NCBI GenBank assembly: GCA_016787645.1
Contig: JAEUUF010000026.1
Span: 62,001-126,000, forward strand
From: Cyclobacteriaceae bacterium
GTDB taxonomy: Bacteria > Bacteroidota > Bacteroidia > Cytophagales > Cyclobacteriaceae
Reading direction: 5' to 3'
Length of the DNA stretch: 64,000 bases
Position 1 is the stretch's first letter; the number at the start of each line of letters is the position of its first letter. Shown here piece by piece: positions 6,419-50,841 of the stretch. The position numbers were made by a program, and so were the translations under genes. The notes below the pieces were generated by a model, which was not told where the DNA came from, did not search any database, and saw only the letters and a list, made by a program, of their open reading frames with translations.

Positions 6419-7228
6419 ATGCGCGTATGGCGATACATTAACATCCTGAGCCTGGACATCGCGGTTGGCGCCATGACCGGTTGCGCCTTCTTTGCCCACT
6501 TGTTCGGCATTGTCCTGTTGTCGCACGGACTCCTCTCCCTGGGGTTGATCGTTTGGATTATTTACACCGTAGATCACCTGGCCGACGCCAACCGAAGTGA
6601 GGGCGAGCCCTCGACGGAACGCCACCGGTTCCACAAACGCTGGCGTATTCCTTTGAAAGCCGGAGTGGTGCTGGCCTCCATTCTCGTCGGTATTGAAGCC
6701 TTCTATGTGAGAAAACCTGTGCTCGTTGCGGGGCTTGGACTGGGCATCGTGGTCATCGTCTACCTCTTCTTCCAGGCCAGGCTAAAGATGTTCAAGGAGT
6801 TGACGGGCGCCCTGTTATATACCGCTGGTGTTCTGGTGGCACCCTTGTCGCTGCTGACGCGACCATTGATCGAAGCTGAATGGAGTCTCATCGCATTGTT
6901 TATGCTCACCGCGTTCGCCAATCTTCTGCTCTATTCCTGGTTTGACCAGTCTAACGATGAGCAGGATGGTCACGTCTCCATGGCTACCGTATTGGGACAA
7001 AAAACAACGGGAAAAATACTCATGATCACCTTCCTGGTCATTACCGTGATCGGCACGCTCACCATTTTCCTGGATCCAACTTTCATTTGGCCGATAATCT
7101 TTTTGCTGTCTATGAATGCGTTACTGTTCATTCCGTTTCAATTCCGAGGCTATTTCAGTCAAAAGGACCGGTATCGTGTTGTCGGTGACTTGGCCTTTCT
7201 GCTTCCGGCATTGTACCTGCTGCTTTGA
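6419..7228 (+). CDS. UbiA-superfamily-like membrane protein
   Basis: A 269-residue integral membrane protein with about eight hydrophobic segments. Two acidic stretches sit where UbiA prenyltransferases carry their Asp-rich motifs: TVDHLADAN near residue 50, and DQSNDEQDGHVSMATVLG near residue 180, which matches the second UbiA pattern DxxxG..TLAVxLG well. The first motif is reduced compared with the canonical NDxxDxxxD. Known UbiA enzymes transfer prenyl chains to aromatic acceptors in quinone, heme or lipid synthesis. Whether this one is an active prenyltransferase is open. It overlaps the following methyltransferase gene, so the two are probably translated together. It is divergent from pulA, with an 83-base gap. 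Confidence 0.6.
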   Translation: MRVWRYINILSLDIAVGAMTGCAFFAHLFGIVLLSHGLLSLGLIVWIIYTVDHLADANRSEGEPSTERHRFHKRWRIPLKAGVVLASILVGIEAFYVRKPVLVAGLGLGIVVIVYLFFQARLKMFKELTGALLYTAGVLVAPLSLLTRPLIEAEWSLIALFMLTAFANLLLYSWFDQSNDEQDGHVSMATVLGQKTTGKILMITFLVITVIGTLTIFLDPTFIWPIIFLLSMNALLFIPFQFRGYFSQKDRYRVVGDLAFLLPALYLLL

Positions 7229-7890
7229 TGATGGTACTGAATCAATTTGACAGGATTGCAGCGGTTTATGACGGGCTTGCCCGGCTTGTTTTCGGTCAAC
7301 GGCTGACCCGTGCCCAGGAGATTTACCTTTCTCAAATACTTCCACGCTCCAGGGTATTAATTCTAGGGGGCGGTACAGGAAAGATAATCGGTGCACTAAA
7401 GCGTGTGCAGCCGGACTGTCGGGTAATTTTCATCGAAGCATCTCAGGCCATGCTCCAACGGGCCAAGGATAGAAATAAAGCGTTGGCGGGCATTGAATTC
7501 ATACACGGCACAGAACAATCCATCCCACCTGGAGCTTTGTATGATGTTGTAATCACGCCATTCTACCTGGACATGTTCCCGGAAGATCAATTGCGGGAAG
7601 TGATTAAGCATGTAGGTCTGACTTTGGACATTCACGGGAAATGGCTGGTCACCGATTTCTATTCACCCACTACGATCGGGCAACGTTGGCTGGAGAGAAT
7701 CATGTACCTGTTCTTTCGGGTGACCACCGGAATTTCCGCCAAGTCGCTGCCAGACTGGAAGGCCTCATTGAGGGACAACGGGTGGATCGAAAAGAACCAT
7801 GCCCGCGATGGTTTCATTGAAAGCGCGGTATTTGTCAGGGGGCAACTCAGCGCAGCTGAAATGACTCGCCGGGCAAGTAGATCGACGTGA
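7228..7890 (+). CDS. Class I SAM-dependent methyltransferase
   Basis: A Rossmann-fold methyltransferase of about 220 residues. Motif I VLILGGGTGKI is followed by an acidic residue in VIFIEAS that should bind the SAM ribose. The start is ambiguous: TTG at 7225, ATG at 7228 and ATG at 7231 are consecutive in frame. The ATG at 7228 shares one base with the TGA of the UbiA-like gene, and I chose it. The coupling suggests methylation of a prenylated or membrane product, which is inference only. The 3' end overlaps the convergent cyanophycinase-like gene by 44 bases, so the C-terminal 14 codons of both genes are encoded on opposite strands of the same DNA. Confidence 0.78.
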   Translation: MMVLNQFDRIAAVYDGLARLVFGQRLTRAQEIYLSQILPRSRVLILGGGTGKIIGALKRVQPDCRVIFIEASQAMLQRAKDRNKALAGIEFIHGTEQSIPPGALYDVVITPFYLDMFPEDQLREVIKHVGLTLDIHGKWLVTDFYSPTTIGQRWLERIMYLFFRVTTGISAKSLPDWKASLRDNGWIEKNHARDGFIESAVFVRGQLSAAEMTRRASRST

Positions 7891-8695: not shown

Positions 8696-8754
8696 TTTAC
8701 TTCTTACAGTTTACCGTTCACTGGTCACCGGTCACCGGTTACTAATTAACCGGT
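8696..8754. repeat. NTYACYG heptad repeats over a stop codon
   Basis: About eight consecutive 7-base units run from 8696: tttactt, cttacag, tttaccg, ttcactg, gtcaccg, gtcaccg, gttacta, attaacc. They fill the gap between the S51 and M28 genes and enter the 3' end of the M28 coding region. The M28 stop codon (TAG on the minus strand, 8742-8744) and its last residues lie inside the units. ACCGGTT at 8734-8740 and AACCGGT at 8748-8754 form a perfect 7-bp inverted repeat with a 7-base loop around that stop. Confidence 0.8.
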
Positions 8755-10283
8755 CCCTTCCTCGTCGCCTTCCGCTGTTCAGGCCATTTGATACGTTCAC
8801 CTGTCTTTGAATCAATCGGAAGAATGCTCTTGTCTCGGGAAACGCGAACCGGGTCTTCACACGCCTGGTAAACCAGGATAGCTGCAAGGATTACATTGCT
8901 GCGGACATCATCAAAGACCACTTTGTCATACGTATCACGGTTGGTATGCCACGTATAATCGCCGTATGACCAACTGGTTGCGCTCAGTGAAAAACCAGGT
9001 GCGCCCATCGCAATGAAGGAAGCATTGTCAGAACCGCCGCCGGAGGGTGTGCCCGGGAATCGTGTTTCGATGCCGGTGCGGATATTCTCCGGAACTTTGG
9101 TGAGGTATCGTTGAATCACTTCGTATGCATTCAGGAATCCCTGGCCCTGGATCTCGCGGATTCTGCCTGTGCCGTTGTCCTGGTTGAACAGGGCCTGGAG
9201 GTTATTGACAATTTCAGGGTGATCTTCAACAAAGGCCCGTGAACCATTCAGGCCTTGCTCCTCGCTTCCCCAGTGACCCACGAGGATCGTGCGCTTCGGG
9301 TTCGGGTAAACCTGTTTTAGAATCCGCAGCGCCTCCATCATCATGATCGTGCCCGTGCCATTGTCGGTCGCGCCCGTTCCGCCATCCCATGAGTCGAAGT
9401 GTGCGGACAGCATCACGTACTCATCGGGCTTCTCGGTCCCTTTGATTTCTGCAATGGTGTTGAAGGCCGGAACGATGCCCAGGTCCTTGGAGTCAGTCCG
9501 CACGCTGATCTTCGGTTTCACGCCAGATTCGTTGAGGCGGTAAAGCGTCCCATAGTCTTCCAGGGCTACATCAATGGTTGGGATCTTCACGGTACGTGCC
9601 TGGAATATCTTGTTAACGCCAAAGCCCCTGGACCAATTCGAAGTGACAATACCCAATGCTCCTGCCTTTTCCAGGGCCGCTGGCAAGGTCCGGTTGGTCT
9701 TTCCCGTCTTCTCTATTCGCTTCGCCCAGGCATCAGTTTGCGCCGTACGGTCCGCCTTCATCTTTTCAAAAGATTCCGGTGTTCCAAACTCCTTCCAGTT
9801 GTAATCTGGCCGCCCGGTCGGCTGCGGCATTGAAACCATTACGAACTTGCCCTTAACCGCCGGAAGCCATTGCTGGAAAGCGATTGAATCAGCCAAATCA
9901 GGCAGGATAACCAACTCACCAACAATGCCTTTTCCATTAGTAGAAGGGCACCAAGCTAATTGAGTGGCTTCCAACGTCTTAACTCTTGGGTAAATCATAT
10001 CGATATGAGAGACTCCACGCTCCCACCCTTTCCATTCTCCCCACTTCTCATTGCGGGCTGTTATGCTCCATCCTGAATACTTGGAGACGGCCCAGTCATG
10101 GGCCTTTTGCATCTGGGGTGTACCCACCAGGCGGGGTCCGATCCCGTCAAACAACTCGTGAGCCAGCTTCTCCAATTGTGAGTTTTCGTTGGCTTCTTTT
10201 ACAATAGCGCTCACGATAGGATCCTGGCCAAGGGCACCAATTGTCAGGCCCAGGATGAATATCAGGGAAAGGCAAATTCTCAT
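8742..10283 (-). CDS. M28 family metallopeptidase, exported
   Basis: A 513-residue zinc aminopeptidase or carboxypeptidase of family M28. A cleavable signal peptide ends near LGLTIGALGQ at residue 20. A PA-type insert domain is likely at about 115-270. The di-zinc ligands are visible: His295 and Asp297 in SAHFDSWD, bridging Asp307 in ATDNGTG, Glu341/342 in GSEEQG, Asp369 in NQDNG, and a late His in YTWHTNRDTYD. The upstream in-frame start at 10316 would add 11 residues before the signal peptide, so the ATG at 10283 was chosen. The C-terminus GPVN is encoded by heptad repeat sequence. The role is probably breakdown of peptides taken from outside the cell. Confidence 0.9.
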   Translation of the reverse strand: MRICLSLIFILGLTIGALGQDPIVSAIVKEANENSQLEKLAHELFDGIGPRLVGTPQMQKAHDWAVSKYSGWSITARNEKWGEWKGWERGVSHIDMIYPRVKTLEATQLAWCPSTNGKGIVGELVILPDLADSIAFQQWLPAVKGKFVMVSMPQPTGRPDYNWKEFGTPESFEKMKADRTAQTDAWAKRIEKTGKTNRTLPAALEKAGALGIVTSNWSRGFGVNKIFQARTVKIPTIDVALEDYGTLYRLNESGVKPKISVRTDSKDLGIVPAFNTIAEIKGTEKPDEYVMLSAHFDSWDGGTGATDNGTGTIMMMEALRILKQVYPNPKRTILVGHWGSEEQGLNGSRAFVEDHPEIVNNLQALFNQDNGTGRIREIQGQGFLNAYEVIQRYLTKVPENIRTGIETRFPGTPSGGGSDNASFIAMGAPGFSLSATSWSYGDYTWHTNRDTYDKVVFDDVRSNVILAAILVYQACEDPVRVSRDKSILPIDSKTGERIKWPEQRKATRKGPVN

Positions 10284-10369
10284 ATTGTATGTTAGTTTGG
10301 TTTGGCGTACGGCCAAGGTAAGATCACGCCCATAGCACGCATAGCATTTTTTGAGGAGCGGCGAAGGGA

Positions 10370-29191: not shown

Positions 29192-30267
29192 CAGTGAACA
29201 GGGATAAAGTAAAACATGATGGCCAAAATAAGGTAGAACAGGATCAGTTGTACACCCTTGTACCAGTTTGATTTTCCATCGCCGGCCACCATAATACCTA
29301 GCAGTACAGCAAAGAACATGGAGCCCAGCAACGAGGGGACGAAGGAAAGGGTTAGCTGAGCTGGCCCTATAAACAAACTGCAGAGGACTAAAATGGGTCC
29401 TACAAACAGGGCAATCTGTATCGAACTCCCCATCACAATACCAATATAAAGATCCATCTTGTTCTTGGAGGCCATGCTGAACGCCGTGATGAGATCTGCG
29501 GCGCCGCCCGCAACAGCCAGGAAGACCACTCCGATAAACAAGCCCGTCATTCCCATTGCCTTTCCGGTGGCTTCTGCCGCACCGACGAGCACTTCGCTCA
29601 TGAAGGCCGCTCCCACTGCGGAAACAATCAAGGTGCCCAGCGCCCGGTAGAGTGTCCACTTTTCTTCTTTCTCATCATCGCCATCACCTTGACTTTTAAA
29701 AGCTTCCGCATGCGTCTTCAGCATGAAGATCAAGTACAGAATGTAGCTGACCAGCAGCGTAACGGAAAGGACGATGTTGAGGGTATTTTCACTGGCGGCA
29801 AAACTGGTTCCAAAGAAGGAGTGAAATGCGCTGGGTATGAACATACTGCTTGTGGCAATGAGCATCATCGAACCATAAACCCGGATACTGTTGGCGTTGT
29901 AATCCTGGCTGTGAAACTTGAGTCCGCCTACCAGGAAGGCCACTCCCATCTTCAACAACAGATTGGCGAGGATGGCGCCGGCCAACGAGGCGAGAACCAT
30001 CTCGTGAAGGCCAGCATTTAACACTACCAGCGCAATGATTAACTCAGGCAAATTTCCGAAAGTGGCATTTAGCAAGCCTCCCGCCGCGTCTCCGGTGTAA
30101 GCGGCCAATTGCTCTGTAGAAAGGCCAATCAACCGGGCGATGGGGATGATCGAAAGACCCGCTGAAAAAAAGACAAGAGGTGCACGTGCCCCGCTGTAAT
30201 CCAGGAAAAGCGCAACGGGTACAAACACCAGCAGCCAGTATATGGAAGGTTTGAACAAGGATTTCAT
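29191..30267 (-). CDS. CAX-type Ca2+/H+ antiporter
   Basis: A 358-residue membrane protein with about 11 helices in two homologous halves. The first cation-binding repeat is canonical (NATFGNLPELIIAL). The second reads GGAADLITAFSMASKNKMDL, where CAX proteins normally have GNAAEH: Asn is Gly, Glu is Asp and His is Leu. An acidic cytosolic stretch (GDGDDEKEEK) separates the halves. The ATG at 30267 (MKSLFKPSIYW) was preferred over an in-frame ATG at 30330. It heads an operon with the VIT-like and exported beta-rich genes. The predicted role is divalent cation efflux. Confidence 0.85.
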   Translation of the reverse strand: MKSLFKPSIYWLLVFVPVALFLDYSGARAPLVFFSAGLSIIPIARLIGLSTEQLAAYTGDAAGGLLNATFGNLPELIIALVVLNAGLHEMVLASLAGAILANLLLKMGVAFLVGGLKFHSQDYNANSIRVYGSMMLIATSSMFIPSAFHSFFGTSFAASENTLNIVLSVTLLVSYILYLIFMLKTHAEAFKSQGDGDDEKEEKWTLYRALGTLIVSAVGAAFMSEVLVGAAEATGKAMGMTGLFIGVVFLAVAGGAADLITAFSMASKNKMDLYIGIVMGSSIQIALFVGPILVLCSLFIGPAQLTLSFVPSLLGSMFFAVLLGIMVAGDGKSNWYKGVQLILFYLILAIMFYFIPVH

Positions 30268-30409
30268 TTCAAGGAGACTGGAACAATTTAAGCTGCCGCG
30301 TGTGAAGCGCCGCTGATTTTGATCACTCAAGATACATTAAGTCATCCATGGAATCTGATTTTACCACAGCCAACTTTTCTGTTACTTTACCCGCTTCAAA
30401 CCTAAATCC

Positions 30410-33400
30410 ATGAGAAAGATCTCTTTCCTTTGCGTGTGCTTATTGCTGTTGAACTTCTGCGCGTTGGGCCAGAAAAAGAAAGCAGCTCCGGCTCCACTTC
30501 CAACTCCCGTCCTCGATACCGCCTTCTTTAAGTCATTGACTTACCGAAACATAGGACCTACGCAAGGTGGCCGCGTTACGGCTGTGGTTGGCATCCAAAC
30601 ACTGCCCGGCACTTTCTATATGGGCGCCACCGGAGGCGGAGTTTGGAAAACGGAAGACTATGGAATCACATGGGCGAACGTCTCTGACGGGTTCTTTGCA
30701 ACACCCTCTATTGGAGACATCAACGTATTTCAACCGAATCCAAAAATTGTCTACGTCGGCACCGGCTCCGATGGCATCCGTTCCAACGTGATTGTTGGCA
30801 AAGGAGTCTACAAATCAACTGACGCCGGAAAGACATGGAAACATGTCGGCCTGGAAAAGGTAGGCCAAATTGGTGCCGTTGAAATCCACCCCACACACGC
30901 CGATACCGTGTTCGTGGCCGCCATCGGTCAACCGTTCAACCCCAACAAAGAGCGTGGTGTCTACCGCACCCGCAACGGTGGAAAGACATGGGAACAAGTG
31001 CTCTATCTCTCTGATACCATTGGCGCTGCCGACCTGGAGTTTGCTCCCGGCAACCCGGACATAGTGTATGCCACCATGTGGCGCGCAGAAAGGAAACCCT
31101 GGACGATCATCAGTGGCGGCAAGCAAGCCGGCGGTATCTACAAATCCGTTGATGGTGGTACCACCTGGAAGAAACTCACTCAGGGGCTGCCCAACGGGTT
31201 GATTGGAAAAATCGACCTGGCCGTTTCCGATGCAGATCCCAAACGACTCTATGCGTTGATCGAAGCCCCGAAAGGTGAACGGGGCATCTATCGCTCCGAT
31301 GACCAGGGTGAAAACTTTAAACAGGTTGTGGACAAGAAAGAATTGATCGACCGGCCCTTTTATTATTGCAACATTGAAGCTAACCCGAAGAATGCGGATA
31401 TTCTTTTTGCGATGACAACCAGCTTCTGGAAATCAACCGATGGAGGAAAAACATGGAAGTCGGTCTCCACTCCCCACGGCGACAACCATGACCTGTGGAT
31501 CAACAAGCGCGATACCTCGATCTGGATTCAATCGAATGACGGCGGGGCCAACGTGACCACCAACAGCGGCAAGTCCTGGTCGTCCCAAAACAACCAGCCC
31601 ACTTCAGAACTCTACCAGGTAGATGTGGATGACCAGTATCCCTACTGGCTCTACGCCGGTCAGCAAGACAACAATACCACCGTGGCCGTGCCCACGCTCC
31701 CGCCTTACGACCCGGCCTGGGGACCCGCCAGTTTCCTGATGGCCACTGGCGGCTGCGAAACCGGGCCGGCCGTACCGAAGCCCGGAAACCACAATATTAT
31801 TTACGCGAATTGCAAAGGCCGGTTCAGCGTGTACGACAAGAGCACCGGGCAGGAACAAATTTTTGTCGTCGGTGGAGCAAACATGTATGGCCATGATCCC
31901 GATCAACTGAAGTTCCGCTTTCAGCGCGTATCTCCCATTCATGTGTCACCACACAATCCCAACGTGGTATACCATACGTCACAGTACGTTCATAAGACGA
32001 TGAATGATGGGATGACGTGGGAAATTATCTCTCCGGACCTTACGGCCAATGAGCCCTCCAGGCAAATCATTTCGGGAAGCCCGATCACCCGCGACATCAC
32101 CGGCGAGGAATTTTACAGCACCATTTATGACATCAAGGAATCATCTCTCAAAGCAGGGCTGATCTGGGTTGGCGCCAACGACGGCCCAGTTCATGTCACC
32201 CAGGACGGCGGCAAAACATGGACCAACGTAACCCCCAAAGAACTTCCACCGGGTGGACGCATCGACTGTGTTGAACCATCACCGCACACCGAAGGCAAGG
32301 CTTATTTCGTTTCGTTGCGTTACCAATTGGGCGGCTGGAAACCATATATCTACAAGACGCTGGACTTCGGGAAAACCTGGAACTTGATTACCAATGGTAT
32401 ACCCTCCGATTTTCCCGTGCGCGTTGTCCGGGAAGATCCAGGTGCTCCAGGTGTCCTTTATGCGGGCACCGAATATGGCATGTTCATTTCACTCGACGAT
32501 GGCGCCAGCTGGCAGCGGTTCCAGCAGAACCTGCCCGTGACTCCCATCACGGATATCAAAGTCTATCGCAACGATCTGGTGTTGTCCACGATGGGTCGTT
32601 CATTTTGGGTCATCGACAACATTACTCCGCTCCATCAGTTGGCAAAAGCCAAGCAGCAAACAGCTTACCTGTTTAAGCCTGCAGACACGTATGCGTACCG
32701 GTACCGGGGTAATGGCCGCGGTGAAGTCCCCTATTTCCCGGCTCCTTCCGCAATCATTGACTATTACCTGAAAGCAAAGCCCGCAACTGATATCAAACTG
32801 GAGATTTTGTCCGGTACGAAAGTCATCCGATCATTTACGAGCGCGGTTCCGCCACGTGATACAACTAATGCCGCGACGCGCAACATGGCCACCAACTTTA
32901 CCAGTCGTAATACCCGTGCCGATCTTACCAAGAACAGCGGGGCCAATCGCTTCCGTTGGGACATGACCCATGAAGGACCGTGGGACAGCGACCCGGCCCG
33001 GAACAAGCGTGGCGGCCACCGTGTGAGCCCAGGTACGTATGAAGTGCGTTTGACGGTTGATCAGCAAGTTTTTTCTCAGCCGTTGGTTATTCTCGCCGAT
33101 CCGCGTGTAAAGGGAAAAGTTTCAACAGAAGACATGAAGGCCCAGGAGCAACTGGTCTTTGAAGTCAACGTTGTCCTCGACAGCACGAAACGTGTGGCTG
33201 ACAAGATCAAGAAGCAGCGCAAGGAAATCGCCAGCCTGGTTAAGGCTGGAAAAGCTTCGGACAGCCAGGTTGCGCTGGATCGCAGCCTCTTAAGAATTGA
33301 GGATTTGCTGGTTACGAAGGAAGGTGCCTACGAGACACCACGTCTCATCGACCAGTTAAACTACCTCCGTCAGCAACTCGACCAGGCTGACCAACGGCCA

Positions 33401-33487
33401 GGCAGGGATCTGTACCAACGGTACGATGAACTAAAAGCTGAAGCGTGGAAAGTGCTTGGGGAATATAGGGCTGCCGTGAAGCAGTGA
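30410..33487 (+). CDS. VPS10/BNR-repeat exported protein
   Basis: A 1,025-residue exported protein with a signal peptide ending FCALGQ. It is built from BNR/Asp-box repeats in a VPS10/sortilin-like propeller: TDAGKTW, NGGKTW, DGGTTW, DGGKTW, NSGKSW, NDGMTW, DGGKTW, DFGKTW and DDGASW are spread over residues 60-700. The C-terminal 250 residues carry an immunoglobulin-like segment and a helical tail. Such proteins are often annotated as glycosyl hydrolases, but I see no catalytic site that supports this; a binding or scaffold role is as likely. A near-consensus box TACTTTAC lies at 30383. The stop codon is within a heptad-repeat palindrome. Confidence 0.85.
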   Translation: MRKISFLCVCLLLLNFCALGQKKKAAPAPLPTPVLDTAFFKSLTYRNIGPTQGGRVTAVVGIQTLPGTFYMGATGGGVWKTEDYGITWANVSDGFFATPSIGDINVFQPNPKIVYVGTGSDGIRSNVIVGKGVYKSTDAGKTWKHVGLEKVGQIGAVEIHPTHADTVFVAAIGQPFNPNKERGVYRTRNGGKTWEQVLYLSDTIGAADLEFAPGNPDIVYATMWRAERKPWTIISGGKQAGGIYKSVDGGTTWKKLTQGLPNGLIGKIDLAVSDADPKRLYALIEAPKGERGIYRSDDQGENFKQVVDKKELIDRPFYYCNIEANPKNADILFAMTTSFWKSTDGGKTWKSVSTPHGDNHDLWINKRDTSIWIQSNDGGANVTTNSGKSWSSQNNQPTSELYQVDVDDQYPYWLYAGQQDNNTTVAVPTLPPYDPAWGPASFLMATGGCETGPAVPKPGNHNIIYANCKGRFSVYDKSTGQEQIFVVGGANMYGHDPDQLKFRFQRVSPIHVSPHNPNVVYHTSQYVHKTMNDGMTWEIISPDLTANEPSRQIISGSPITRDITGEEFYSTIYDIKESSLKAGLIWVGANDGPVHVTQDGGKTWTNVTPKELPPGGRIDCVEPSPHTEGKAYFVSLRYQLGGWKPYIYKTLDFGKTWNLITNGIPSDFPVRVVREDPGAPGVLYAGTEYGMFISLDDGASWQRFQQNLPVTPITDIKVYRNDLVLSTMGRSFWVIDNITPLHQLAKAKQQTAYLFKPADTYAYRYRGNGRGEVPYFPAPSAIIDYYLKAKPATDIKLEILSGTKVIRSFTSAVPPRDTTNAATRNMATNFTSRNTRADLTKNSGANRFRWDMTHEGPWDSDPARNKRGGHRVSPGTYEVRLTVDQQVFSQPLVILADPRVKGKVSTEDMKAQEQLVFEVNVVLDSTKRVADKIKKQRKEIASLVKAGKASDSQVALDRSLLRIEDLLVTKEGAYETPRLIDQLNYLRQQLDQADQRPGRDLYQRYDELKAEAWKVLGEYRAAVKQ

Positions 33488-33504
33488 CCGGTTACCGGTT
33501 ACTG
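33482..33504. repeat. Near-palindrome supplying two convergent stop codons
   Basis: Three units (cagtgac, cggttac, cggttac) plus tg give a 23-base sequence that matches its own reverse complement at 20 positions. It holds the TGA of the VPS10/BNR gene (33485-33487) and, on the other strand, the TAA of the rhodanese gene (33494-33492). The units belong to the same heptad family as the array at 33.84 kb. Confidence 0.7.
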
Positions 33505-33806
33505 ATCTTTCGCTCCAGCGACATCCAGCCGCCTCCGTTGTGGACTTCGGCGTACCCCTGGCTTTTCAGGAAAGACTTCGCCTGTCCACTCCTCATGCCG
33601 GAAGCACAGCAGGTAATTACCGGTTTGTCCTTGCGCAAGCGCTGATATTGGCTGGGCAGGTTGCCCAACGGGATATTGATGGCGCCCTTCACATGCCCTT
33701 GCTGGTACTCGCCCTTTGTCCTTACATCGACAATCACCGCACCATCGGCTACTAATTGGTTTAGATCCACCTTGGGACCAAAGAGATTTGAAATGAAACT
33801 GAACAT
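33492..33806 (-). CDS. Rhodanese-like protein
   Basis: A 104-residue single-domain rhodanese. The active loop is CCASGMRSGQA, with Cys67 as the likely persulfide carrier, preceded by VIVDVRTKGEYQQGHVKGAINIPL, the standard rhodanese core. The first 12 residues (MFSFISNLFGPK) form a short amphipathic lead rather than a cleaved signal. It transfers sulfane sulfur in the cytosol. The last residues ISNR and the stop are encoded by heptad repeat units. It is downstream of the second rhodanese gene, from which the 17-unit array separates it. Confidence 0.87.
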   Translation of the reverse strand: MFSFISNLFGPKVDLNQLVADGAVIVDVRTKGEYQQGHVKGAINIPLGNLPSQYQRLRKDKPVITCCASGMRSGQAKSFLKSQGYAEVHNGGGWMSLERKISNR

Positions 33807-33843
33807 TATTATGACTTTACTACTGGTTAATGCAACTACTCTG

Positions 33844-33962
33844 ATTACTGATTACCGATCACCGTTCACTGATCACCGGTTACTGTTTACTGTTTACCGT
33901 TCACTGTTTACCCTCTGCCGGTCACCGTTTACTTGTCACCGGTCACTGTTTACCGTTCACCG
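33844..33962. repeat. 17-unit NTYACYG heptanucleotide array
   Basis: Seventeen 7-base units run without interruption or phase shift: attactg, attaccg, atcaccg, ttcactg, atcaccg, gttactg, tttactg, tttaccg, ttcactg, tttaccc, tctgccg, gtcaccg, tttactt, gtcaccg, gtcactg, tttaccg, ttcaccg. Positions 4-7 (ACYG) are almost fixed, while positions 1-3 vary. On the minus strand each unit reads CRGTRAN and so holds TAA or TGA; because 7 is not a multiple of 3, stops fall in all three frames. The array fills the gap between two rhodanese genes and contains the stop of the upstream one (33959-33957). Confidence 0.9.
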
Positions 33963-34190
33963 AACTGCCGTCCAGCTCCCGCCATTTTCACACTCCACAC
34001 CTTGCGCGCGGAGAAAATGAGTAGCCTGGCCACTGCGATTACCGCTGGCACAGCATAGGATGATCGGCTGTTGGAGTTGTTTGATCTCGTCGAGGCGTTC
34101 CACGACCTGATGGAGTGGAATGTTGATACTTCCGGGAACATGTCCACCGGCAAATTCACCCGGTGTGCGTACGTCTACAATTGTTTTCAT
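33957..34190 (-). CDS. Small rhodanese-like protein
   Basis: A 77-residue minimal rhodanese domain. It starts MKTIVDVRTPGEFAGGHVPG and has the active loop CCASGNRSGQA. This is shorter than usual rhodanese domains (about 100 residues) because the first helix is missing. It probably carries sulfane sulfur. Five bases separate it from the DUF6132 gene upstream, so it belongs to the MBL-rhodanese operon. Its stop codon lies in the first unit of the heptad array. Confidence 0.85.
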   Translation of the reverse strand: MKTIVDVRTPGEFAGGHVPGSINIPLHQVVERLDEIKQLQQPIILCCASGNRSGQATHFLRAQGVECENGGSWTAVR

Positions 34191-34195
34191 TTTGC

Positions 34196-34411
34196 TTATT
34201 CAGTTGTATGGTTTCTGTTTGGTTTTTCCTTGTTGAATGAGGTGAAGAGCAGCCAGCCCATCATGGCCCCATAGAGTGTGCTGTTTACCGGTCTTGAAGT
34301 AATCGGGCAGGTTCCCGTGGTGCAACCGATGAAGTGATAATACAGGTATCCACCTGCTGCCCCTGCCAGGATTCCCAGCAAGGTCAGTTTATGTTTAATT
34401 AAAAAACTCAT
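34196..34411 (-). CDS. DUF6132-like small membrane protein
   Basis: A 71-residue protein with two hydrophobic segments around GCTTGTCPITSRPVNSTLYG. This Cys-rich turn is typical of a small family (DUF6132, from memory) found with rhodaneses and sulfur carriers in Bacteroidota. The two Cys may bind or pass sulfur, which is inference. Its ATG overlaps the TGA of the MBL-rhodanese gene by four bases (ATGA), so translation is coupled. Confidence 0.75.
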   Translation of the reverse strand: MSFLIKHKLTLLGILAGAAGGYLYYHFIGCTTGTCPITSRPVNSTLYGAMMGWLLFTSFNKEKPNRNHTTE

Positions 34412-35739
34412 TCCTGGAACGTCTTTACCGCTTCACTCAGGTCGAATACCGGCACGCTCCCGTGTAACGCCGATCGCACAATGGTGCTTCCCGCCGCGCT
34501 GCGGTATCCGCCTGCACAATGGACTACGACAGGTTTATTCGTCGGAATTTCTTTGACCCGTTCACGAAGCTCGTAGAGCGGGATGTGTATCGCCTTCTCA
34601 AAAATCTTCGAAGCCTTTACTTCCGAGGGATTCCGGATGTCGATGATCGTGAAGGCATCTTCGGTCTTACGAAGCAATTCCGGGTCAAAAATGTTCATTT
34701 CATGCGAGCCTGCGTCTTCGACAGACACCCCTTGAATTTGTGATTCGTATCCCACCCGCGCAATGCGCTCGATAAGTTCATTGAGCACCTCTTCGCTTTC
34801 TGCAATCAGGTAGAAAGGTTCGCCGGGATTGACGATGCTCCCCAGCCAGGTTTCAAACTTGGTATCCCGCATGAGGTTGATCGCCCCTTTGTGGTGGGCT
34901 TTCTTGAATAGTCGTTCGGGGCGCGCATCGATGATGGTGACGTTGGTAGATTCGGGCAACGGTGCACGTTTGACCTTACGGATCGAGTCGCGGAAATGAT
35001 CTGCGCCTCGCTTGTTGATGCCCACAGCAAATGGAAAATACTTTGGAACGAAAGGTTGGTCAGCCAGCAGATTTTTGATGAAATCAGTTTCTGACATCTT
35101 CTGCAGGCTCCAGTTGGTCAGCTTTTCTGCCCCGATTGTGCTTACATTTTGCTTGCTCAGCCCTTTGCCACACAAACTGCCCGCTCCGTGTGCCGGATAA
35201 ACGAGGACCTGGTCAGTCAACGGTAATAATTTGTCACGCAAAGAATGATACATCTGTCGGGCTAGTTCTTCGCGTGCGGCAGTGATGGCTCCGGCAGATT
35301 CGCGCAGGTCAGGGCGACCGCAATCGCCAATAAAGAGCGTATCACCTGTAAACACTGCATGCTCCTTCCCATCCTCGTTCAGCGCCACGACGCTGATGCT
35401 GTCGGGCGAGTGACCCGGTGTGTTCAATGCTTTCAGGGTGATTCCACCCAGCACAATGGCCTCGCCCTCATCAAAGGTCTGGTGCGGGTATTCCGCCCCA
35501 AGCAATTTACTCACATAGATGGTTGCACCGGAAGATTGGTGGATTTCCAGGTGACTGCTGACAAAATCAGCATGCGGATGGGTTTCAATCACCGCGGTGA
35601 TCCTGGCCTTCTGGCTAATCGCAAAGTCATAGTACGGCTGCGGATTTCGCGCCGGGTCGATAACGGCCATTTCGCCATTACTGACAATCGCATAGGAATA
35701 ATGGGCCAGGTTCTTGTCTTCAAATTGATGAATGACCAT
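34408..35739 (-). CDS. MBL-fold/rhodanese fusion, persulfide dioxygenase-like
   Basis: A 443-residue protein. The N-terminal 250 residues are a metallo-beta-lactamase domain of the persulfide dioxygenase/glyoxalase II group, with ETHPHADFVSSHLEI as metal motif and FTGDTLFIGDCGRPDL as a second ligand block. Two rhodanese domains follow. The first (about 265-345) lacks the active Cys. The second (about 355-443) has HCAGGYRSA. Related enzymes oxidise glutathione or other persulfides to sulfite and pass sulfur to rhodanese. The ATG at 35739 (MVIHQFEDKNLAH) was chosen over an upstream in-frame ATG that adds 17 residues without domain similarity. Confidence 0.87.
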   Translation of the reverse strand: MVIHQFEDKNLAHYSYAIVSNGEMAVIDPARNPQPYYDFAISQKARITAVIETHPHADFVSSHLEIHQSSGATIYVSKLLGAEYPHQTFDEGEAIVLGGITLKALNTPGHSPDSISVVALNEDGKEHAVFTGDTLFIGDCGRPDLRESAGAITAAREELARQMYHSLRDKLLPLTDQVLVYPAHGAGSLCGKGLSKQNVSTIGAEKLTNWSLQKMSETDFIKNLLADQPFVPKYFPFAVGINKRGADHFRDSIRKVKRAPLPESTNVTIIDARPERLFKKAHHKGAINLMRDTKFETWLGSIVNPGEPFYLIAESEEVLNELIERIARVGYESQIQGVSVEDAGSHEMNIFDPELLRKTEDAFTIIDIRNPSEVKASKIFEKAIHIPLYELRERVKEIPTNKPVVVHCAGGYRSAAGSTIVRSALHGSVPVFDLSEAVKTFQE

Positions 35740-35761
35740 GGGTTCTGGGTTAATACGGGTG

Positions 35762-35769
35762 CAAAAATA
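35762..35769 (-). promoter_or_regulatory. TATTTTTG -7 box of the sulfur operon
   Basis: On the minus strand this reads TATTTTTG, a full match to TAnnTTTG, 23 bases before the MBL-rhodanese ATG at 35739. This supports that start. No -33 TTTG is seen at usual spacing. Confidence 0.45.
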
Positions 35770-35821
35770 ATAGCGGCGCCTCATGGACACCGCTACCTAA
35801 GTTACAAACGATGAATGTTCT

Positions 35822-36055
35822 TTATTTTGGCTGTGCCGGTGAATTGGGTTGGTCCTCTTTCGGCCGGGTTGATAACCCGATGAGGGTATACAACGGGCAG
35901 AAACTCACGAGGCTGGTGGCGATGAAGATACCGGCTACGACAAGCAGGATAATGGCTAGCGTTCCGGAAATGACACCCTGAAAATAAAGGACGGCTACAA
36001 CAATGGCTGCTGCAATCCTCACAATCCGGTCAATCGTACCCATGTTTGGTTTCAT
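35822..36055 (-). CDS. DUF2892 (YgaP-like) membrane protein
   Basis: A 77-residue protein with two membrane helices, matching the inner membrane domain of YgaP (DUF2892): NMGTIDRIVRIAAAIVVAVLY followed by LVSFCPLYTLIGLST. In YgaP this domain is fused to a rhodanese; here it is a separate gene next to rhodaneses, which supports a role in sulfur handling at the membrane. Confidence 0.85.
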   Translation of the reverse strand: MKPNMGTIDRIVRIAAAIVVAVLYFQGVISGTLAIILLVVAGIFIATSLVSFCPLYTLIGLSTRPKEDQPNSPAQPK

Positions 36056-36128
36056 AGTTCAGTTGGTTTTTGGTTAGCGATATATGAACAAACCTAACAC
36101 ATAAGTCGTTCCCGCACCGCTACTAAAG

Positions 36129-36764
36129 TTACACAAGGGTAATCTTGTTTCGCCCGAGGTTGACAATCCCTTCTTCTTCCATTCGCTTCAGCAACCGGGA
36201 AACCACTACCCGGGCGGTGCCCAGTTCATGAGCCAATTGGTCGTGGGTAACCAATAAAGTGCGGCTGTTTGTCATCGCGCACTTCTTTTTGATGAAATCG
36301 AGCAAGCGCTCATCTACCTTCTTAAAAGCCACAGCATTGACCACTTCAAGGAGCTCTTCAAAACGCTTATGATAAAGCCGGAAAATATAGTTGAGCCATT
36401 CGGGGTTTTCCCGGATCAGGGCGCTCACCTGGTCGATGGGGATAAACAAAACGTCGGTGTCTTCTTCGGCCACCGCCACCACCTTGCTGGTATCATTGTG
36501 GAGGCCGCCTAACAGAGACATGATGCAACTTTCACCTGAGCGAATATTGTAAAGGAGCAGCTCACGGCCGTCTTCATCTCGTCGGATCACCCGCACGCTG
36601 CCCTTGGTTACCACCGGGATGGCTCGTATCCTCATGTTCTCGTCCAGGATTACGTCACCTTCGGAAAATTTTCGTGCAGTGCCCATCTGGACAAGGCGAT
36701 TGCTCAGGCCAGGAATCGGGCTTACCAGTTGATCCTCAGAAGGTGGGTTTATTTCTTCAGCCAT
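36129..36764 (-). CDS. Crp/Fnr-family transcription regulator
   Basis: A 211-residue regulator. Residues about 20-130 form a cyclic-nucleotide-binding-like domain (SGESCIMSLLGGL), and residues about 150-211 a winged helix with LLVTHDQLAHELGTARVVVSRLLKRM as the recognition part. No Cys cluster for an iron-sulfur centre is present, so it is not an Fnr-type oxygen sensor. The position upstream of, and facing the same way as, the sulfur genes suggests that it controls them, which is inference. A perfect -7 box lies upstream. Confidence 0.88.
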   Translation of the reverse strand: MAEEINPPSEDQLVSPIPGLSNRLVQMGTARKFSEGDVILDENMRIRAIPVVTKGSVRVIRRDEDGRELLLYNIRSGESCIMSLLGGLHNDTSKVVAVAEEDTDVLFIPIDQVSALIRENPEWLNYIFRLYHKRFEELLEVVNAVAFKKVDERLLDFIKKKCAMTNSRTLLVTHDQLAHELGTARVVVSRLLKRMEEEGIVNLGRNKITLV

Positions 36765-36791
36765 TTCGGTTCATTTCAGTTTCAAAAGCTA

Positions 36792-36799
36792 CAAAATTA
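36792..36799 (-). promoter_or_regulatory. TAATTTTG -7 box reusing a stop codon
   Basis: On the minus strand the TAA stop of the outer-membrane protein gene (36799-36797) begins TAATTTTG, a full match to TAnnTTTG, 28 bases before the Crp/Fnr gene start. No -33 element is evident. Confidence 0.45.
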
Positions 36800-37426
36800 C
36801 AGATCGAATTCTCGCCCCCTGAAGATATAGCCCAGGTTTATGCCATACTGGACAATGGCTGGCGTTCCTGGTTCGTAAAGTTTACCGCCTTCGGCAGAGA
36901 TGTTCAGAAACACGGTGCGACGCACGATGAAGGACAATCTCAATCCCCCAGACCAGAATCCGGCGATTTCTGCGTCGTAATCCTTTGACTGATAAAGTCC
37001 TTTGAGTACGCTCACGTAAGGGACAAGTTCAATACCCCGGGCCAGGGGGATATGGTAATTAGTGTGCTCAAGTGCGCTGAGTAACGCCATCGAAAAAATA
37101 AATAGCGTTCCGCTCCGGACAATATTTTTGTTATGAAACCAGATAGCAATTGGGGTAAAGAACGATCCTCCTCCGAATTGAATATACTGCTCAGACACCA
37201 CAAATGACCACTCGATTCCCCAGCGGTTTCCTATATAGTATTCCGCATTGAACCCGAATGCATCCTGCGGGGCAATTCGGTCAATATTCATCCGATAATA
37301 GCTGAAGGAGAGATCGTTGGGCCATGGCAGCTTGGTTGACGTGTCGATAGTTGCCTGGCCTCTAACAGGATGATGAATAGAAAGCAGAATCAGAAGGAGT
37401 ATCAAGATTGCTGAGACCCTTTTCAC
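36797..37426 (-). CDS. Outer-membrane beta-barrel protein
   Basis: A protein of about 209 residues with signal peptide MKRVSAILILLLILLSIHHPVRGQ and strands such as AFGFNAEYYIGNRWGIEWSFVVSEQ and GINLGYIFRGREFDL, ending in an aromatic-type C-terminal strand. It is likely an outer-membrane barrel of unknown role. The start was set at the GTG at 37426 because it gives a normal signal and has AGGAG five bases before it. An ATG at 37477 would add 17 non-hydrophobic residues. Confidence 0.68.
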   Translation of the reverse strand: MKRVSAILILLLILLSIHHPVRGQATIDTSTKLPWPNDLSFSYYRMNIDRIAPQDAFGFNAEYYIGNRWGIEWSFVVSEQYIQFGGGSFFTPIAIWFHNKNIVRSGTLFIFSMALLSALEHTNYHIPLARGIELVPYVSVLKGLYQSKDYDAEIAGFWSGGLRLSFIVRRTVFLNISAEGGKLYEPGTPAIVQYGINLGYIFRGREFDL

Positions 37427-37526
37427 TGCCACTCCTGGCCCGTGAAAATTGACTGAACTATGATCAGCGCTTTTCATATACCAGTCTGGTTATCGTTCAA
37501 ACAAGTAGGACCACACGTCGAGGAGA

Positions 37527-39575
37527 CTACCGCAAAGCAATCAACACGACAATGCTGTAGGGTTTCAGACGGCACGAGCTGGTCGTCACCAGTGGCGCAT
37601 CTTCCCAAGACACAATATCCTTGGGTGATGGAAGAGCCGTATCGATCCATCTCTTCCAGGGCATCGTGGGATGTTCTTCCAACTCAAAATCCAGTGGTTC
37701 CATCCAGGCATTCACCATGTAGTGCACCCGGGTATGCCCCGTCAGGCTGGTCACGGTGAAGGCGATGGCGTGTGAGTTGCCTGACCAGTCCGGTTCATTA
37801 AGCCGAACTCCATGCCAGGCGATCAGCCGTTGTTGGAGCAGTTCCCTCAGGCTGAGGGAATACTTCATCTGCGCGGTGTCACGCATGAGTCGCAGGCGAA
37901 TGAGCTGCTGCACAAAGCGGAAGAGGTCCTGGTTCTTCTTCACGAGGTCCCAGTCAAACCAGCTTATCTCATTGTCTTGGCAATACGCATTATTGTTCCC
38001 CCGTTGCGTGCGGCGCACTTCGTCACCCATCAGCAACATCGGCGTGCCTACGGCGAGCAGGGTTGCAGCAAAGAAGTTCCGGATCTGCCTCTTGCGAAGC
38101 GCCTCGATACCCGGATTGTCAGAAGGCCCTTCCACGCCGCAGTTCCAGCTGAAATTATAGTTGCTGCCATCCTGGTTCTCCTCTCCGTTGGCATCGTTGT
38201 GCTTGTTGTTGAACGTCACCAGGTCATTGAGGGTAAATCCATCATGGCAGGTGACAAAGTTGACGCTTTGCTCAGGTTCCCGTTCATCATTTTCATAGAG
38301 GTCAGGGCTACCCACCATCCGGGTGACAAAGCTCCGCACCATGTCGTTGTCACCGCGCAGGAAACAGCGGACATCATCCCTGAATTTACCGTTCCACTCC
38401 TTCCAGCTGTCGCCAACAAAGGTGCCTACCTGGTAAAGTCCGGCGGCATCCCAGGCTTCAGCGATAAGTTTGGTGCCGGCCAGGACAGGATCTGATTCGA
38501 TTTCCCACAACACCGGCGGGTTTTCGATGGGATTTCCATTTTCATCCCGTGAAAGAATCGCGGCAAGGTCGAAACGAAAACCATCCACGTGCATCTCCTG
38601 GACCCAATAATGGAGGCTGTCGACGATCATCCTTCTGACAATGGCATGATTGGCGTTTAACGTATTGCCGGTGCCCGAAAAGTTGGCATACTTGGTTTTG
38701 TCTTTCTGCAGGGTGTAGTAAATGCTGTTGTCAATGCCGCGGAACGAGTAGGTAGGTCCGTGCTCGCCCCCTTCCCCGGTATGATTGTAGACTACATCCA
38801 GAATGACCTCAATCCCTGCCTTGTGCAAGGCCTTGACCATCGTACGGAATTCATCGATGGCGCCTTGCGGATCACTGTTACTGCTGTATTGCTGGTGCAG
38901 TGCAAAAAAGGAAATGGGATCATAGCCCCAGTAATTCCTTCTTCCATCCTCACGTGGTGCATCATCAAACTGGAATACCGGCAGCAATTCCAATGTCGTG
39001 ATGCCGAGGTCGACGAGGTACGGAATTTTTTCGATCAATCCGGCATAAGTACCTCGCCGGGGAGGCGCAACACCGGAATTGGGATGCTTCGTGAAGCCAC
39101 TGACATGCATCTCATAAATGACGGTTTGCCCAAATGATCTTCTCGGATTTTGATCATCCTCCCAATTGAACCTGGACAGGTCGCAAACCACACTCTTGAG
39201 CGGTATCGTACCTTTCTTGCGGTCCTTGGGAAAAGAAATTGCCTTGGCATAAGGATCCAACAGGATCGACTCCGGGTTGAACCGGTGCCCTTTGGCGGGG
39301 TCGTGCAAGCCATCAACCCGGTAGGCATACAATTGGCCCGGTTGGATTCCGGGGACAAAGACATGCCAATAATGATAAGTTCGGTTGGTAAACGGATCCA
39401 GTGATATCGTCCGAGAAGGTCCTGTATCGTTCGGGCACTGAAAGAACAGCAATTCAACCTTCCTGGCGTTCCGAGAGAAAATGCTGAAGTTAACTCCACC
39501 GTCTATGCAGGTGGGGCCAATCGGAAATGGCTGGCCTGCTTGCGTTGGAGACTGACGATCGGTCTTGAAGAACAT
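37527..39575 (-). CDS. glgX: Glycogen debranching enzyme GlgX
   Basis: A 682-residue cytosolic GH13 enzyme with N-terminal CBM48 (about 15-110). It contains YWGYDP at 215-220, DVVYNH at 260-265, GFRFDLAAI with nucleophile Asp336, IAEAWD with Glu373, and TCHDGFTL with Asp445, plus the GlgX/TreX block GDEVRRTQRGNNNAYCQDNEISWFDW. It should remove alpha-1,6 branches from glycogen limit dextrins. No other glycogen gene is in the window. It differs from the exported pullulanase at 4.3 kb. A TACCTTGC box on the minus strand just upstream is close to the -7 consensus. Confidence 0.93.
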   Translation of the reverse strand: MFFKTDRQSPTQAGQPFPIGPTCIDGGVNFSIFSRNARKVELLFFQCPNDTGPSRTISLDPFTNRTYHYWHVFVPGIQPGQLYAYRVDGLHDPAKGHRFNPESILLDPYAKAISFPKDRKKGTIPLKSVVCDLSRFNWEDDQNPRRSFGQTVIYEMHVSGFTKHPNSGVAPPRRGTYAGLIEKIPYLVDLGITTLELLPVFQFDDAPREDGRRNYWGYDPISFFALHQQYSSNSDPQGAIDEFRTMVKALHKAGIEVILDVVYNHTGEGGEHGPTYSFRGIDNSIYYTLQKDKTKYANFSGTGNTLNANHAIVRRMIVDSLHYWVQEMHVDGFRFDLAAILSRDENGNPIENPPVLWEIESDPVLAGTKLIAEAWDAAGLYQVGTFVGDSWKEWNGKFRDDVRCFLRGDNDMVRSFVTRMVGSPDLYENDEREPEQSVNFVTCHDGFTLNDLVTFNNKHNDANGEENQDGSNYNFSWNCGVEGPSDNPGIEALRKRQIRNFFAATLLAVGTPMLLMGDEVRRTQRGNNNAYCQDNEISWFDWDLVKKNQDLFRFVQQLIRLRLMRDTAQMKYSLSLRELLQQRLIAWHGVRLNEPDWSGNSHAIAFTVTSLTGHTRVHYMVNAWMEPLDFELEEHPTMPWKRWIDTALPSPKDIVSWEDAPLVTTSSCRLKPYSIVVLIALR

Positions 39576-50717: not shown

Positions 50718-50841
50718 TAAATATCGAATATCGAATAACAAATGTCGAATGATGAAGTTTGGTTTCAACGTGCAGTCTTTAAAGCACAAATATTGAACCG
50801 ACTTCAACATTCAAAATTCGATATTCGATATTCGATATTTA
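50718..50841. terminator. 124-nt hairpin built of ATATCGA heptads
   Basis: Arms 50718-50758 and 50801-50841 are inverted copies: 41 bases with about five mismatches, beginning TAAATATCGAATATCGAATA. Within the arms, period 7 is clear (atatcga, atatcga, ataacaa, atgtcga on the left; aaattcg, atattcg, atattcg on the right). The 42-base loop folds again (GGTTTCAA with TTGAACC, GTGC with GCAC, CTTTAAAG). It spans the gap between two convergent genes and ends exactly on the decarboxylase stop codon. A two-way terminator or transcript-end structure is likely. Confidence 0.75.

Follow-up and report, generated by a model that had tools for sequence, protein, structure and literature searches.

What is a run of seventeen heptanucleotides doing between two rhodanese genes whose counterparts in related bacteria overlap or are all but adjacent, and how might it have come to be there? 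The array lies in a 64,000-nucleotide stretch of DNA, the window, which belongs to the genome of a Cyclobacteriaceae bacterium (4,016,998 bases, or 4.0 Mb, in 28 contigs; hereafter this genome). The features needed to follow the argument are given below.

33844..33962, plus strand: NTYACYG heptamer array of 17 units (repeat detection, unit reading)
33957..33959, minus strand: TGA stop of rhodanese 1, within the array unit 33956-33962 (ORF reading)
33957..34190, minus strand: rhodanese 1, 77 aa (PF00581)
33492..33806, minus strand: rhodanese 2 (PF00581), a 104-aa protein whose gene follows the array downstream
33484..33504, plus strand: three-unit heptamer mini-array between convergent genes (sequence reading)
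30410..33487, plus strand: gene for a sortilin/VPS10-like protein, its 3' end in the mini-array (PF15902)
34196..34411, minus strand: gene for a DUF6132 protein, in the same minus-strand series as the rhodaneses (domain match)
34408..35790, minus strand: gene for a metallo-beta-lactamase/rhodanese (MBL-rhodanese) protein, in the same series (domain match)
8696..8744, plus strand: another NTYACYG array, the second in the window, where the M28-peptidase gene 8742-10316 (minus strand) has its 3' end
50720-50751, no strand assigned: further heptamer array, AATATCG type
50803-50839, no strand assigned: further heptamer array, TTCGATA type

Structure and setting of the array

The array spans 119 bp (33844-33962, plus strand) and, as the earlier note had claimed, its 17 heptamers follow each other in a single phase, head to tail with the 7-nt period of the heptamer class of repeats. 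Fourteen of the units fit NTYACYG exactly (CRGTRAN on the minus strand), the misfits being TTTACCC, TCTGCCG and TTTACTT, and TRF detects the array at periods 7, 14 and 21. Column 2 is T and column 4 is A in 16 of the 17 units each, column 5 is C in all 17 and column 7 is G in 15; columns 1, 3 and 6 are free, the latter two as C or T. The earlier description of positions 4-7 as almost fixed and 1-3 as drifting therefore holds for columns 1 and 3 and for columns 4, 5 and 7, but not for column 2, which is nearly fixed, or column 6, which is free. TYACYG has a chance of 0.001 at one given place and nine perfect units in a row a chance of about 1e-27 per given place; the array is far beyond chance. 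Sixteen stop codons lie on the minus strand, 5, 6 and 5 by frame, which confirms the claimed interruption of all three frames, and the plus strand has 0, 0 and 2.

The minus-strand series runs MBL-rhodanese, DUF6132, rhodanese 1, array, rhodanese 2, in agreement with the placement of the array in a co-directional gap, and from gene direction alone it follows that the array is presumably transcribed. Beyond rhodanese 2, the mini-array 33484-33504 carries both the TGA (33485-33487) of the plus-strand gene 30410-33487 and the TAA (33492-33494) of the minus-strand gene 33492-33806.

A gene junction that is closed in relatives

Rhodanese-2 loci were compared from 29 relatives (of 58 matching genomes, this genome included), the best of them 67% identical in rhodanese 2 and none of them close enough to count as a strain. 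A rhodanese-1 match upstream of rhodanese 2 was absent in 12 of the 29 and lay just upstream in 17, where the inter-ORF distance of -4 to +17 nt leaves no room for an array; none of these 17 relatives has one between the two genes, which stand 150 nt apart in the window. Rhodanese 1 terminates on a TGA inside the array, and past a shared tryptophan its C-terminus lacks 4-11 of the residues that each of the 17 relatives has (hand count). Because the adjoining-gene state is common to all 17, we infer that it is probably ancestral, and the simplest reading would be that the array arrived after the lineages parted, took over the gene end and gave it a new stop.

Two further array-bearing gene ends were each compared with their best 29 relatives, the identity of the next gene forming no part of the comparison, and an NTYACYG array was found in 0 of 29 at either end. 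At the second, 6 of the 29 relatives have a different spacer with lag-7 periodicity (two of the six are alike and not independent), and in three of the six the segment starts in the native stop codon, as it does in this genome.

By-eye inspection of orthologues of the gene end at L041 1239-2981 found heptad-periodic spacers that differ by species (L289, L290, L292, L293, L298), of the types TAGTCNT, AAGTAAG and TGATTTA. The spacer starts in the native stop in L289, L290 and L298, and an inverted array seems to lie further on in L290, L292 and L293.

Position and strand relative to gene ends

Gene ends were surveyed with a home-made gene caller over 86 array rows, 30 from this genome (including a few arrays of other heptamers) and 56 from relatives. 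Where an array overlaps a gene 3' end, the coding strand reads CRGTRAN in 15 cases (8 in this genome, 7 in relatives) and NTYACYG in 2, a count that excludes the 77-aa rhodanese, which the caller missed and which was placed by hand; three more arrays lie inside genes. The CRGTRAN overlaps measure 6, 13 or 20 nt in 14 of the 15 cases, placing the stop in unit 1, 2 or 3, as expected when every unit carries a stop and the period is 7, so that any incoming frame is caught within three units. This bias is partly definitional, because a stop-free array would lengthen the open reading frame and then be scored as lying inside the gene. In co-directional gaps the coding strand is the stop-bearing one in 12 arrays to 4 in this genome but in 19 to 20 in relatives (hand counts), which implies that there is no general rule of orientation.

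Arrays of any sequence were counted as well; 104 were found, 52 of them adjoining a single gene 3' end. Among the 25 that overlap it, the coding strand has more stops in 17, fewer in 4 and equally many in 4, the gene's own stop being discounted; the 27 that do not overlap divide 8 to 8 with 11 ties. Within 10 nt of the stop codon these non-overlapping arrays favor a stop-bearing coding strand by 7 to 2, and farther away the count is 1 to 6. A 'stop-codon safety net' as the general function of the arrays was rejected on the absence of any net preference off the gene ends. The orientation bias of the overlaps appears to be the work of selection and not of an insertion mechanism.

Occurrence in the genome, its relatives and the wider class

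The earlier note had called for a genome-wide search for runs of NTYACYG, holding that an array unique in the genome and freely variable between strains would be a simple local repeat; unique it is not. Three-unit matches number 146 in this genome against 5 for the reversed pattern, and the arrays are scattered over at least about 25 loci. With the unit fit and the improbability given above, these matches led us to reject both a chance origin and a purely local repeat. Under a slightly stricter pattern, motif matches occur in 11 of 35 same-genus relatives against 3 of 35 for the reversed control; 42 array sites were counted among these matches, of which 40 were taken for analysis.

Across the class, the motif occurs in 33 of 247 genomes and the reversed control in 25 (hand counts, this genome being in both), and among named genomes in 2 of 38 and 7 of 38, respectively (hand counts). 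With the control nearly as widespread, the idea that NTYACYG is special to the class at large was rejected. This genome stands out in the class-wide scan with 133 matches to 5 in the control. Heptamer arrays are common, and the dominant heptamer depends on the lineage. The constraint on ACYG that the earlier note had proposed is, as a functional one, not supported by these comparisons: this genome and its relatives hold heptamer arrays with quite different letters, the control is nearly as widespread in the class as the motif, and in all 17 relatives that have the gene pair the site is too short for an array. The named-genome loci (80 of 142 used) come from relatives at 70% identity or less, and we take these named relatives to be Bacteroidota, as they are wherever a title gives the group.

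One convergent gap of this genome (C5:277178-277598; L038 2779-3199) holds three heptamer arrays in the order GGCRCTR, TTCACYG, CTAACCC. At several Pontibacter loci (L073, L088, L093, L103 and L107, at about 7100-7430), degenerate AGTTNRNG octamer arrays lie at a gene end and face an inverted copy downstream.

Tandem arrays were also sampled by period, through clustered self-match segments, in 464 kb of this genome (the window, itself chosen for its array, and 20 stretches taken at steps; about 450 kb after one masked stretch), in a single relative (400 kb) and at 80 named-genome loci. A period of 7 or 8 or multiples of these was found in 21 of 22 clusters in this genome, 13 of 16 in the relative and 31 of 45 at the named loci; the rule is strict in this genome and looser at the named loci, where coding repeats also occur. 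After one first-order shuffle (at most the first 21 sequences per sample), no segments were found at lags 5, 6, 7, 8, 14 or 21. Lag-7 segments occur in 15 of 211 intergenic regions of this genome and lag-8 segments in 5, and over lags 2 to 22 only 14, 16 and 21 are represented besides these. The unit sequences are diverse (CRGTRAN, GGYRCTR, GGGGTYA, AAATGTA, the octamers AGTTNRNG and others).

Variation within and between arrays

Deviations from the commonest letter number 8 in each of columns 1, 3 and 6 of the window array and 0, 1, 1 and 2 in the remaining columns, and 0 of 300 shuffles were as clustered. Column-clustered variation was likewise found in 19 of 28 arrays of this genome (the 30 rows less two made up of masked letters only) and in 13 of 33 arrays of relatives. 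The units of the window array follow one another in an order that cannot be told from a random one. Plain slippage predicts that neighboring units are alike, and both the missing order and the column clustering count against it in its simple form; with them the view in the earlier note that the array is unlike a young slippage repeat holds up. Duplication of 14- or 21-nt blocks as the cause of the column-limited variation was rejected for the window array on the same lack of order, and it holds for some others: among 25 arrays of eight or more units, order signals appear in 6, 5 and 5 at unit lags 1, 2 and 3. Column-limited variation could reflect site selection, a C/T mutational bias or a copying process. 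Column 1 is weakly associated with columns 3 and 6 in this genome (10 and 21 of 500 permutations, respectively), and the pooled column table, made with an array finder that rewards columns 2-7, cannot serve as independent evidence on them.

Among 25 arrays of this genome, single unit types are shared more often than under a column shuffle (1264 versus 1105) and two-unit words show a mild excess (83 versus 60; 6 of 300 shuffles). From three units upward, shared blocks are at chance level (three units, 4 versus 3.7; four units, 0), and a 27-nt string, the longest in common, lies within the shuffle range. Copying between loci was rejected for want of any excess at three units or more, with only that mild excess of two-unit words. 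The same degenerate motif at loci without shared long blocks is a pattern that plain local slippage does not predict.

How the arrays may arise

We favor, as probable, a reading in which heptamers grow in place between genes in a 7-nt register and translation filters the result at gene ends. Arrays would arise and expand where they stand, both here and elsewhere among the Bacteroidota. At the locus studied here the array would have grown, or been seeded and then grown, at the junction of the two rhodanese genes; it would have replaced the last codons of rhodanese 1, supplied its new stop and left rhodanese 2 150 nt away. The growth itself may be slippage-like, an idea taken from the literature on the polymerase footprint.

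An unlikely alternative is that the units, NTYACYG in DNA or CRGURAN in RNA, are putative sites for a DNA- or RNA-binding protein, with selection holding T2, A4, C5 and G7 in place while columns 1, 3 and 6 stay free. Such a function would suit the column-limited, unordered variation of the window array, the recurrence of one motif at some 25 loci or more that have no long blocks in common and its presence in 11 of 35 same-genus relatives versus 3 for the control, but the motif was kept at none of the three loci tested in the relatives examined, heptamers differ between genomes, the genes concerned (rhodaneses, M28 peptidase, GMC oxidoreductase) have no evident common function, and orientation tracks the distance from the gene end rather than obeying one rule.

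More doubtful is a register set in trans, in which a lineage-specific agent maintains or writes its own heptamer arrays and admits free letters only at certain columns; the candidate agent would be either a protein that binds the arrays or some copying process that moves in 7-nt steps of its own. It would account for same-motif arrays that are not copies of one another, for the random unit order of the window array, for the column-limited variation and for the unlike heptamers of different species at one gene end.

We consider it quite improbable that the arrays are a mobile or copied element spread by transposition, phage or gene conversion. The lineage-specific presence of the arrays and the excess of shared two-unit words agree with such an element, as do at least 120 stretches of IMG/VR contigs with four-unit arrays, some with a density above 2 arrays per kb. 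Against this, neither the blocks of at least three units that arrays share nor the longest shared string goes beyond chance, and the reversed pattern, an imperfect control that admits some heptamers akin to the motif, also occurs in at least 120 IMG/VR stretches, so that the viral matches are not specific to the motif.

One contig filed as viral, IMGVR_UViG_3300025506_000008 (L345, 1-11465), holds 29 TYACYG-type arrays in 11.5 kb, including 12 inverted pairs (hand count) 11-42 nt apart that are potential hairpins. It encodes an AAA ATPase (PF13401) and reads, from its predicted ORFs, as a Mu-like phage; a Pfam search with its 567-aa transposase-like ORF gave no match.

That the array acts in the transcript between the rhodanese genes, as a terminator, processing site or 3' stem-loop, is very improbable: the plus-strand RNA of the mini-array (33470-33515) does form a 10-bp stem with one G-U pair (z -3.37; 1 of 200 shuffles as good), inverted array pairs occur in some relatives, in Pontibacter and in phage-like contigs, arrays are few in the divergent gaps of this genome (2 of 50, versus 4 of 20 convergent) and the strand lean flips with distance from the stop codon (7 to 2, then 1 to 6) as the arms of paired stems would, but the main array folds little better than shuffles (z -1.27 for the 126-nt minus-strand RNA, with 19 of 200 shuffles as good; z +0.60 for the plus strand), it has no palindromic stem of the REP/BIME, MITE or terminator-hairpin kind, no inverted partner array was found at the rhodanese locus, and Rfam gave no match over 30000-38000.

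Relation to known heptamer repeats

The window array belongs to a known kind, the intergenic heptamer repeats of prokaryotes, and this genome has the many dispersed intergenic loci of that class as well as its patchy distribution between related genomes (11 of 35 in the genus; 0 of 17 at the rhodanese pair). In the passages of Mori et al. (2018, PMC6344855) drawn on here, heptamers are the most abundant intergenic tandem repeats in many prokaryotes and offer no clear clue to their function; those passages contain neither a comparison of a single site across relatives nor column or unit-order statistics, both of which are given here. Long simple sequence repeats have been ascribed to slippage of a polymerase with a 7-nt footprint (Mrazek 2007, as cited in PMC4679880 and PMC4692102).

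Two described families come closest. The GGGANTN / GGGGA(T/C)T repeats of Xanthomonas and Nostoc, with 2-26 units per array in Xanthomonas campestris (Rehm et al. 2015, PMC4692102), resemble the present arrays, as far as the sections used go, in being mostly intergenic and dispersed, with a 7-nt period and both fixed and free columns, in lying near or over stop codons on the coding strand, in being few in divergent gaps and in forming inverted pairs. Unlike them, the NTYACYG unit has no regular G-tracts; a tract of three or more G in each unit, as in these G-quadruplex heptamers, is no feature of the window array, where a single GGG lies on the minus strand opposite 33911-33913. The window array also differs from what those sections describe in that it appears to have shortened a gene and separates genes that adjoin in relatives.

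The TAACTGA direct repeats of Beggiatoaceae, Cyanobacteria and five Bacteroidetes (MacGregor 2015, PMC4679880) are, in the parts of that paper drawn on, likewise mostly intergenic heptamers with stops in three frames and overlaps of gene ends, are patchy and can be missing between a given pair of genes when a close relative is examined; the window array shares the three-frame stops in one orientation and the gene-end overlap. It differs in its unit, TYACYGN, which is degenerate in three columns, and exact TAACTGA occurs on neither strand of 33844-33962. In the main TAACTGA genome described there, most sets lie just upstream of start codons, and S1, Csp or Csr proteins were proposed for them (PMC4679880).

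No paper with such NTYACYG arrays in its title or abstract opening was found in a mostly open-access literature, retrieved by queries other than the motif itself. STRR repeats are cyanobacterial.

The genus is a good test bed for the origin of such repeats, offering arrays at sites too tight for one in relatives, a stop codon derived from an array and a gene end at which the heptamer varies with the species. Fixed against free columns, with no unit order and no copied long blocks, form a pattern that plain slippage fails to predict. An agent acting in trans, if one is behind it, would mean a new system for writing or binding DNA; otherwise these loci would be a clear case of gene ends shaped by repeat growth.
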